NCBI RefSeq assembly: GCF_001610975.1
Contig: NZ_CP013342.1
Location: 2,985,001-3,049,000, forward strand
DNA from: Sphingopyxis terrae subsp. terrae NBRC 15098
GTDB lineage: Bacteria; Pseudomonadota; Alphaproteobacteria; Sphingomonadales; Sphingomonadaceae
Direction: 5' to 3'
DNA: 64,000 nt
A model generated the notes under the pieces. The model did not search any database. It was not told the origin of the DNA and saw nothing but the letters and a program-made list of their open reading frames with translations. The position numbers were made by a program, and so were the translations under genes. Numbering within the stretch: position 1 is the first letter of the stretch; every line of letters begins with the position of its first letter. Below, piece after piece: positions 61,272 to 63,586 of the stretch.

Positions 61272-62096
61272 ATGTCTGCGAATGACCCGTTTCCCGGCTT
61301 GTCTGCGCGTCTTACCGACCGGGAAGTGGAGGTTTTGCGCCTGTTGGTCGCCGGGCATACCGTCAAGACCATCGCGGCGCGCCTGGGGCGTTCGGAAACC
61401 TCGATCAATGAGCGCCTGCGCTCCGCCCGCCGCAAGACGGGGGTCGGCAGCAGCCGCGAATTGGCGCGCCTTCTCGACCTCCAAGAAACTTGTGACGAAA
61501 ATATCGATCTTCCGAAACCGCCCTCCGATGTGGAGCCGTTGGCGCACACCGCAACCATCGGGGTTCGCGGTTCGAAAGGATTGATCGCCATGCTCTTTGC
61601 AATATCCCTGGCCGCCGCCGGGTTGATGTTTGCGGCCGCCCCGTCCGATGACCAGCCGGGTTCATCGAACGCCGCCCATGATACGGCATCGCGTTCCTTG
61701 CCGCTGGTCGGAAGATGGTCGCTGGACGCATCGCAGTTGCCCGAAAAAGAACGGCCCCGGCGAGTGACGATCAGCTTCCGGCCGGCGCAGGACGGCAAGT
61801 GGACAACGCGCGTCGAAATCGTCGCGCCCGACGGCTCGGTCAAATATTCGGAATCGACCGCCGCGCTCGATGGCGTCGCCGTGCCGATCACCGGCAATAT
61901 GGGGTTCATCGACACCGTCGCCCTGCGTCAGCCGGCACCGGACACATTGGTCATGACATTGGGAAAGGCAGGCACCCGGGTATCGACGCGGGTCTATACC
62001 GTCGCCAAGGATCTGAAATCGATGACCGAAACGATCGTCTGGTCGAGCGACAATAGCCAGAAGCTGGAAACCACGCATTTCAATCGCGTCGAGTGA
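61272..62096 (+). CDS. Membrane-anchored LuxR-type regulator with extracytoplasmic domain
   Basis: A 274-residue protein with an unusual order: an N-terminal LuxR/GerE helix-turn-helix (residues 13-70: LTDREVEVLRLLVAGHTVKTIAARLGR, ETSINERLRSARRKTG), a linker, one transmembrane span at about 103-123 (IAMLFAISLAAAGLMFAAA), and an outward domain of about 150 residues with beta-strand character (PLVGRWSLDASQLPE..., VTISFRPAQDGKW). By topology, the DNA-binding part is cytoplasmic and the other end periplasmic, like ToxR/CadC one-component sensors but with a LuxR fold. The outer domain resembles a small lipocalin-like beta barrel; this is a visual guess. Ligand and targets unknown. Confidence 0.85.
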   Translation: MSANDPFPGLSARLTDREVEVLRLLVAGHTVKTIAARLGRSETSINERLRSARRKTGVGSSRELARLLDLQETCDENIDLPKPPSDVEPLAHTATIGVRGSKGLIAMLFAISLAAAGLMFAAAPSDDQPGSSNAAHDTASRSLPLVGRWSLDASQLPEKERPRRVTISFRPAQDGKWTTRVEIVAPDGSVKYSESTAALDGVAVPITGNMGFIDTVALRQPAPDTLVMTLGKAGTRVSTRVYTVAKDLKSMTETIVWSSDNSQKLETTHFNRVE

Positions 62097-62152
62097 TCGA
62101 CGCGTAGCGTCCCGTCGCCGGCAGGCGTTCTCCCAAATGTCCCCGGGAGGAC

Positions 62153-62181
62153 TTGCAAGCGGCGGGGCGCTATCCTACATT
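62153..62181 (+). promoter_or_regulatory. Sigma-70-like promoter for the DUF465-terC transcript
   Basis: TTGCAA at 62153-62158 and TACATT at 62176-62181 are separated by 17 bases, close to consensus. Transcription would begin near 62188, just before the structured leader, leaving a leader of about 160 bases. Confidence 0.6.
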
Positions 62182-62193
62182 TGAAAAGTGCGG

Positions 62194-62314
62194 GCCGGGC
62201 CCCTCTGGCGTCGGCGGGATATTTCCCGCCACGTGATGTCGGACCGCATCGGGTGACACCGATGCCTTGGCGGCCCATCCTCCCCCCTACCAAAGGGCCC
62301 GGCATCGGCGTCAC
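62194..62314 (+). promoter_or_regulatory. Structured leader RNA with two alternative folds (riboswitch-like)
   Basis: Fold one: an outer stem GCCGGGCCC/GGGCCCGGC (62194-62202 with 62295-62303) encloses two hairpins, GGCGGGA/TCCCGCC with TATT loop (62213-62230) and GCATCGG/CCGATGC with six-base loop (62246-62265). Fold two: GTGACACCGATGCC (62253-62266) pairs with GGCATCGGCGTCAC (62301-62314) over 14 bp, which breaks the second hairpin and the outer stem, and is followed by CTGTTTT. Such mutually exclusive stems are typical of attenuators and riboswitches. The downstream TerC family is often under the manganese yybP-ykoY riboswitch, but I do not find that class's conserved loop sequence. Confidence 0.6.
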
Positions 62315-62347
62315 CTGTTTTGAGCAATCTCAATCAGGAGGCGCCTT

Positions 62348-62530
62348 ATGTCCATGAATACCCACATTTATCGATTGACCGTGCTGCACCGCAAGCTCGA
62401 CGACGCCGTGCGTCGCGAGCGCGGACGGCGTGGCGGCGATCCGTTTCGCCTGTTGCGGCTGAAGAAGCTGAAGCTGGCGGTCAAGGATCGCCTTGCCATG
62501 CTCGCGCGGCGCCCGGCCTTCGGCCGCTAA
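62348..62530 (+). CDS. DUF465 (YdcH-family) protein
   Basis: A 60-residue basic protein matching DUF465: THIYRLTVLHRKLDDAVRRE then RLLRLKKLKLAVKDRLAML, i.e. a helical hairpin with the family's LKK.KL..KD.L core. Function unknown; it is a small cytoplasmic protein widespread in proteobacteria. An AGGAG ribosome site stands seven bases before the ATG at 62348 (62354 is also possible). It lies between the structured leader and the TerC gene. Confidence 0.85.
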   Translation: MSMNTHIYRLTVLHRKLDDAVRRERGRRGGDPFRLLRLKKLKLAVKDRLAMLARRPAFGR

Positions 62531-62550
62531 CCATCGATAATCCATGATAT

Positions 62551-62592
62551 GGGCGCGTCGCTTGCGAGCGGCGCGTCCCTTCTTTTGGGACG
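62551..62592 (+). promoter_or_regulatory. Competing hairpins before terC
   Basis: A GC-rich imperfect stem at 62551-62579 runs into CCTTCTTTT, and a second perfect stem, CGTCCC/GGGACG (62574-62579 with 62587-62592, loop TTCTTTT), shares its right arm. The second hairpin ends eight bases before the terC ATG and covers the place where a ribosome site would be. Either an attenuating terminator or a translational gate is plausible. Confidence 0.45.
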
Positions 62593-62599
62593 GACGCAT

Positions 62600-63586
62600 A
62601 TGGAATTTCTGTTTTCCGACTGGCTCGGCACGCCGGTCTGGTTCTGGGCCGCCTTCATCGTCCTTGTCGTCGCGCTGACCGCATTCGACCTTGGCATCCT
62701 GCACAAGGAGAACAAGGAGATGGGGATCGGCGAGAGCCTGAAGCTCTCGGCGCTCTATATCGGCATCGCGCTGGCCTTCGGCGCCTGGATCTGGGCGGAG
62801 AAGGGCGGCGAGGCCGGCCTGCAATATTATACGGGCTTCTTCATCGAGAAGGCGCTGTCGATCGACAATATCTTCGTTATCTCGCTGATCTTCGCGACTT
62901 TTGCCATCCCCGCGCGCTATCAGTATCGCGCGCTGCTGTGGGGCATCGTCGCGGTGATCGTGCTGCGCGGGATCATGATCGCGGGCGGCGCGGCGCTGGT
63001 TACCGAATATGAATGGCTGCTCTATGTCTTCGCCGCCTTTCTGGTCTTCACCGGCGTCAAGATGCTGTTCGCGAGCGACAAGCCGATGGACGTTGCGGGC
63101 AATCCGGTCGTCCGCTGGCTGTCACGGCACATTCCGATCACGCCCGACCTGCACGGCGAAAAATTCTTCGTCCGCACGATCGACAAGAAGAGCGGCAAGC
63201 TCGCGCTCGCCGCGACGCCGTTGTTCCTGGCGCTGGTGGTCATCAATCTGGCCGACCTCGTTTTCGCGGTCGATAGTGTGCCGGCGATCTTCGCGATCAC
63301 GACCGACACCTTCATCGTCTATACGTCGAACATCATGGCGATCCTCGGTCTTCGCGCGCTCTATTTCGCGCTCGCCGCGATGGTGCACCGTTTCCACTAT
63401 CTGAAATATGCGCTGGCGCTGGTGCTCGTCTTCATCGGGTCGAAGATCTTCGTCGCCGACTTCCTGCTCGGCGGGGCCAAATTCCCGCCGCTGATCAGCC
63501 TGGGCGTCACGGTCGCGTTGATCGCCGGCGGCGTGCTCTGGTCGCTCGTTAAGACGAAGGACGGCGACGCATCGGCATCCACATAG
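62600..63586 (+). CDS. TerC-family (Alx-like) metal exporter
   Basis: A 328-residue polytopic membrane protein with about nine spans. The family's acidic motifs are present: VALTAFDLGIL, EKALSIDNIFVISLIF and NLADLVFAVDSVPAIFAIT, whose aspartates are thought to bind metal. Alx/TerC proteins export manganese, in some bacteria to charge exoenzymes. The start at 62600 (MEFLFSDWLG) gives the standard N terminus; 62549 is an unlikely alternative. It lies 69 bases after the DUF465 gene and shares its leader. Confidence 0.94.
   Translation: MEFLFSDWLGTPVWFWAAFIVLVVALTAFDLGILHKENKEMGIGESLKLSALYIGIALAFGAWIWAEKGGEAGLQYYTGFFIEKALSIDNIFVISLIFATFAIPARYQYRALLWGIVAVIVLRGIMIAGGAALVTEYEWLLYVFAAFLVFTGVKMLFASDKPMDVAGNPVVRWLSRHIPITPDLHGEKFFVRTIDKKSGKLALAATPLFLALVVINLADLVFAVDSVPAIFAITTDTFIVYTSNIMAILGLRALYFALAAMVHRFHYLKYALALVLVFIGSKIFVADFLLGGAKFPPLISLGVTVALIAGGVLWSLVKTKDGDASAST

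Follow-up and report, generated by a model that had tools for sequence, protein, structure and literature searches.

Several described regulatory RNAs lie close to the leader analysed here. The yybP-ykoY riboswitch (RF00080) precedes TerC-family genes in other bacteria and is linked to Mn2+ and alkaline pH (PMC9603457), while the Na+-I riboswitch, formerly the DUF1646 motif, controls Na+/H+ antiporters and pH-related genes, with a terminator in the reporter studied (PMC9337991). The terC RNA motif (RF03067) is catalogued as a cis-regulatory bacterial element. No reported ligand for it was found in the literature searched, which did not include the original motif paper, and terC is unmentioned in three riboswitch reviews, including that of 2022, according to which no proton-sensor riboswitch was known (PMC9971707).

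In the window, i.e. the whole stretch of 64,000 nucleotides that was analysed, cmscan returned a single Rfam match. It falls on the leader upstream of the DUF465 and terC genes (Table 1), scores 55.2 bits against a cutoff of 39.9 and covers the RF03067 model in full length (positions 1-59 of 59). The leader thus belongs to terC RNA. The conserved internal loop GCCCCUCUG (62199-62207)/GAUG (62235-62238) between P1 and P2 is present in its exact form, P1 has six of seven pairs, and the gene context, DUF465 followed by TerC, is as expected for this RNA. The remaining P1 position, 62194/62243, is a G·A and corresponds to the purine·A mismatch typical of the P3-type leaders described below (67 of 71). 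Across the family, this mismatch is near-invariant in P3-type and carbonic anhydrase leaders, and a U-A pair is usual if terC follows directly. Sequence, core fold, conserved loops and the position before terC-type genes are all alike, and we see no difference that excludes membership; the P3/P4/P5 platform discussed below lies outside the 59-position Rfam model. The earlier note, which had recommended a search with covariance models, considered a divergent or undescribed class of RNA; in view of the confident family match, the claim of an undescribed class falls. Its remark that the conserved loops of yybP-ykoY cannot be found holds for that family, RF00080 giving no match at the gathering cutoff in the window and none up to E = 10 in 61900-62600; the leader does, however, carry the conserved loops of a different Rfam family. 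Matches to MIR1432 and M23 in the scan of the leader were far below cutoff and were dismissed. The added value lies in the switch between P3 and P3* and in the ligand hypothesis set out below; some of the gene associations may already have been reported in the original motif paper.

Table 1. Coordinates of the features of the leader and of the genes behind it (positions in the window).
Feature	Position	Strand	Details
Probable promoter	62153..62181	+	TTGCAA 62153-62158, 17-nt spacer, TACATT 62176-62181
terC RNA core (RF03067)	62187..62251	+	P1 62192-62198 with 62239-62245; P2 hairpin about 62208-62234
Extended P1	62189..62248	+	62189-62198 with 62239-62248; final bases 62246-62248 overlap the P3 5' arm
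P3 hairpin	62246..62265	+	GCATCGG 62246-62252 with CCGATGC 62259-62265, loop GTGACA
P4, alternative long helix	62252..62315	+	62252-62266 (P3 loop and 3' arm) with P3* 62301-62315
9-bp junction-closing stem of the earlier note	62194..62303	+	62194-62202 with 62295-62303
P5, putative SD-covering hairpin	62314..62338	+	62314-62317 with 62335-62338; 62320-62324 with 62329-62333
Shine-Dalgarno AGGAGG	62336..62341	+	from sequence; 6 nt before ATG at 62348
DUF465 small protein, 60 aa, first regulated gene	62348..62530	+	Pfam PF04325, 37.4 bits, cutoff 25
terC, TerC-family membrane protein	62600..63586	+	Pfam PF03741, 168 bits

For comparison with homologous leaders, 170 terC RNA loci were taken, of which 168 could be oriented, and their downstream genes were classed by clustering. 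As to the promoter that had been called good, a strict sigma-70 scan found none here, but the TTGCAA-17-TACATT element sits where promoter-like elements recur before the 168 terC RNA cores, the best-pair promoter score at these cores being above that of shuffles (10.3 versus 8.8). With this promoter, the RNA would start near 62188.

None of 200 dinucleotide shuffles of the region 62180-62320 folds as well as the region itself (z = -3.69), and both stems noticed at first sight are present in it. The 9-bp stem, GCCGGGCCC with GGGCCCGGC, is perfect in the window, as had been stated. The long stem, GGTGACACCGATGCC with GGCATCGGCGTCACC, also exists, but it had been described as a 14-bp stem of 62253-62266 with 62301-62314, which is one base off, and it is imperfect, with 14 of 15 pairs and an A·C mismatch at 62258/62309; CTGTTTT follows it from 62315. 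In two relatives of the same genus, the 9-bp stem is kept by G·U changes only, and elsewhere the pairing of the core 5' strand with the spacer is near chance, which is a weak test as the 5' strand is mis-anchored in some leaders. We therefore rejected the 9-bp stem as a conserved element.

The long stem has a different standing in the homologues. A hairpin, P3 (GCAUCGG-loop-CCGAUGC), was found in 71 leaders; its 5' arm is what the Rfam model contains as its conserved tail. P3 itself covaries in the DUF465 leaders, with G-C or A-U at pair 7, and in a swap of its arms none of 20000 permutations reached the original. Downstream lies P3*, which is complementary to P3 including its variable loop, so that the long stem of the window corresponds to the helix P3:P3*, here named P4. 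In the swap test for this helix, the P3 of each leader was paired with the downstream region of another leader in 20000 permutations; these treat the leaders as independent, which is a limitation, and the test is conservative because close relatives are included among the leaders. The 34 DUF465 leaders reached -23.6 kcal/mol with their own P3* against -17.1 kcal/mol when permuted, and no permutation was as good (0/20000). For 15 zf-TFIIB leaders, 7 of 20000 permutations were as good, for 55 leaders of all classes none of 20000, and for the nine leaders outside DUF465 and zf-TFIIB one of 20000. Both halves of P3 contribute to the pairing in the DUF465 leaders, where the P2 control is negative, and in the zf-TFIIB leaders significance is limited to the 3' half, with a weakly positive P2 control (406/20000). 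The same P3/P3* arrangement recurs in a second terC RNA of the same genome (L001:1501-1554; G000:C1:3687359-3687412), directly before a zf-TFIIB zinc-ribbon gene. Since P3* tracks the variable P3 hairpin and swapped arms pair more weakly, the switch between P3 and P3:P3* is real; covariation shows both helices to be conserved, and they are mutually exclusive. The idea of a riboswitch-like leader with mutually exclusive stems is thereby strengthened, whereas of the folds for which covariation in relatives had been recommended as a check, P3 and P3:P3* covary but the 9-bp stem stays near chance.

How such a switch would act on expression is a separate question. The earlier note read the leader as a transcription attenuator, in which the long stem with CTGTTTT would be an intrinsic terminator and the three-way junction closed by the 9-bp stem the antiterminator. 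This agrees with a long stem that is GC-rich and followed by four T, and with a perfect 9-bp stem that overlaps P3*. However, a T-run of at least four is found in just 4 of 34 DUF465 leaders, three of them from the window's own genus, the CTGTTTT of the window reads CTGCTTGA after the stem in both same-genus relatives, the terminator scan does not list the long stem, and the 9-bp stem is not clearly above chance elsewhere. Moreover, the bases of the supposed U-run lie on the 5' side of P5, where they can pair against the Shine-Dalgarno (SD) sequence. Because the U-run is missing in relatives and lies here in a small hairpin over the SD, a transcription terminator is unsupported and attenuation very improbable; the switch mechanism is most likely translational.

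The putative P5 consists of CCUG:CAGG and UUGAG:CUCAA in the window and of CCUG:CAGG and UUGA:UCAA in the same-genus leaders L097 and L110. In all three, P3* runs into P5, whose 5' strand overlaps the end of P3* and whose 3' strand enters the SD. When the downstream part alone was folded with P4 forced instead of P3, the SD became freer in 21 and less free in 5 DUF465 leaders (P = 0.0025), and freer in 12 and less free in 2 zf-TFIIB leaders; the change in the window itself is small (0.17 to 0.31 unpaired). The two states are equal in energy on average in the DUF465 leaders; in the zf-TFIIB leaders the state with P4 is disfavoured by a mean of 7 kcal/mol. When the fold took in the whole leader, exposure of the SD was significant for zf-TFIIB (P = 0.035) and not significant for DUF465 leaders (P = 0.14). 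The gap between own and swapped P5 strands lies beyond 100/100 and 99/100 shuffles, on which the test was calibrated, as splitting leaders at their own predicted hairpin favours own pairs. A fixed-window swap test gave no support for P5, nor did a chimera test, the design of which favours chimeras and is thus biased against P5. Taken together, a P5 hairpin and the exposure of the SD in the P4 state are moderately supported by these predictions. A simpler platform that hides the SD may exist in the DUF4112-type leaders L144, L146, L149, L158 and L159, in which CUUCCAC just after P1 looks by eye complementary to the SD UGGGAG.

We consider a terC RNA with a two-state translational expression platform, the signal of which we infer from the regulated genes, to be the best explanation of the locus and probably the correct one. 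In the first state, the local P3 would form and leave P3* free, so that P5 could form over the SD and translation would be low. In the second, P3 would open and its loop and arms would pair with P3* as P4, which would use up the 5' strand of P5 and expose the SD. The choice between the two would be made by the terC core, as a stabilised extended P1 would take the first bases of P3 and favour P4. In the 71 P3-type leaders, the four pairs of extended P1 beyond the purine·A mismatch are paired in 90-100%, and P4 mostly starts at the third P3 base. Extended P1 occupies the opening bases of P3, which P4 mostly spares, so that a ligand with a stabilising effect on P1 should shift the balance to P4 and switch translation on; the direction of control would accordingly run from a stabilised P1 through P4 to the ON state.

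The genes within about 0.9 kb behind the 168 terC RNAs were counted by locus, and one representative per type was checked against Pfam. They comprise TerC at 71 loci (with 9 more of a shorter TerC type), DUF465 at 40, zf-TFIIB at 30, DUF4112 at 7, a Na/Ca exchanger at 6 and NhaA at 4 loci. A further 21 loci carry carbonic anhydrases, namely alpha at 10 (L073, L112-L114, L124, L127, L128, L131, L135, L137), iota at 7 (L058, L072, L078, L086, L106, L119, L133) and beta at 4 (L021, L105, L109, L123). The iota assignment is based on one representative, which matches solved iota enzymes with E = 4e-92 and 9e-28 and which the NCBIfam model of metal-independent carbonic anhydrase matches below its cutoff. 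In genome G055, terC RNAs precede NhaA, an iota and an alpha enzyme (L015, L078 and L124). Alpha-, beta- and iota-carbonic anhydrases are three evolutionarily unrelated classes for one reaction, and their shared association with terC RNA therefore points to CO2/bicarbonate or pH as the signal.

Mn2+ has to be weighed against this, as the earlier note had thought of a divergent yybP-ykoY switch. The core would then sense Mn2+ convergently and control TerC, which would act as a Mn exporter or metal chaperone, and it fits such a role that TerC genes are targets of Mn riboswitches in E. coli and B. subtilis (PMC9603457, PMC10550928) and that the mntP switch of E. coli binds Mn2+ more strongly at alkaline pH (PMC9603457). 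However, the closest characterised relatives of the iota enzymes work without metal (PMC8132391), and neither carbonic anhydrases nor NhaA are Mn genes. Apart from the leader, the genome carries a separate Mn riboswitch of the RF00080 family (L181:376-554; G000:C1:2865675-2865853), before a UPF0016 gene. This gene, named from its sequence, belongs to a Mn-exporter family. UPF0016 homologues were found at 9 of 10 RF00080 loci examined versus none of 170 terC RNA loci, and the two RNAs coexist, terC RNA being present in about 36 of the 57 genomes that have the Mn riboswitch. Because of the downstream genes and the separate Mn riboswitch before UPF0016, an alkaline-pH or bicarbonate signal is favoured over Mn2+, which we regard as distinctly unlikely.

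Sensing of Na+ would be in line with the NhaA (4 loci) and Na/Ca exchanger (6 loci) genes and with the control of Na+/H+ antiporters by Na+-I riboswitches (PMC9337991). It is nevertheless very unlikely, since carbonic anhydrases, of which three classes occur at 21 loci, are not Na+ genes and the Na+ riboswitch paper (PMC9337991) does not mention them; Na+-I is, moreover, another RNA, without an Rfam match here. Somewhat less unlikely, though still improbable, is that a regulatory protein or small RNA binds the core, which would then not be a riboswitch: the conserved loop, of which the sequence is given above, is short and pyrimidine-rich, and the lack of a reported ligand in the literature searched would agree with this. 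Against it stands the conservation across many unrelated genes together with an alternative-fold platform, which is typical of riboswitches but compatible with a protein too.

The genes thus suggest that the signal is not Mn2+ but alkaline stress, in the form of pH, bicarbonate or a linked ion. We tentatively propose, as a possibility that falls short of being probable, that terC RNA is a natural riboswitch for alkaline pH or for bicarbonate/carbonate, which would run an alphaproteobacterial pH/CO2 regulon through the P3/P4/P5 translational switch, with the three unrelated carbonic anhydrase classes, NhaA, the Na/Ca exchanger and TerC as proposed members. Carbonic anhydrases, NhaA and TerC behind terC RNA, sometimes several per genome, together with the separate Mn riboswitch make this a concrete ligand hypothesis, and the covarying P3/P3* switch offers mutants with which it can be tested directly.

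Some further observations concern the locus and the distribution of the family. Between DUF465 and terC, a terminator-like hairpin followed by CTTCTTTTGG (62551-62578) may modulate terC separately. The gene just upstream (61272-62096) encodes, as judged by eye, a protein in which a LuxR-like DNA-binding N-terminus is joined to a membrane segment and to a further domain at the C-terminus. Within the taxonomic family of the window, 83 of 150 genomes carry terC RNA, and within the class 40 of 289 do. Head-to-head pairs of terC RNAs occur at G187:C2:1489503 (-)/1489661 (+), G275:C157:2785 (-)/2971 (+) and G276:C9:125403 (-)/125560 (+), and a close tandem pair is found at G137:C1:2189309 and 2189696 (+).
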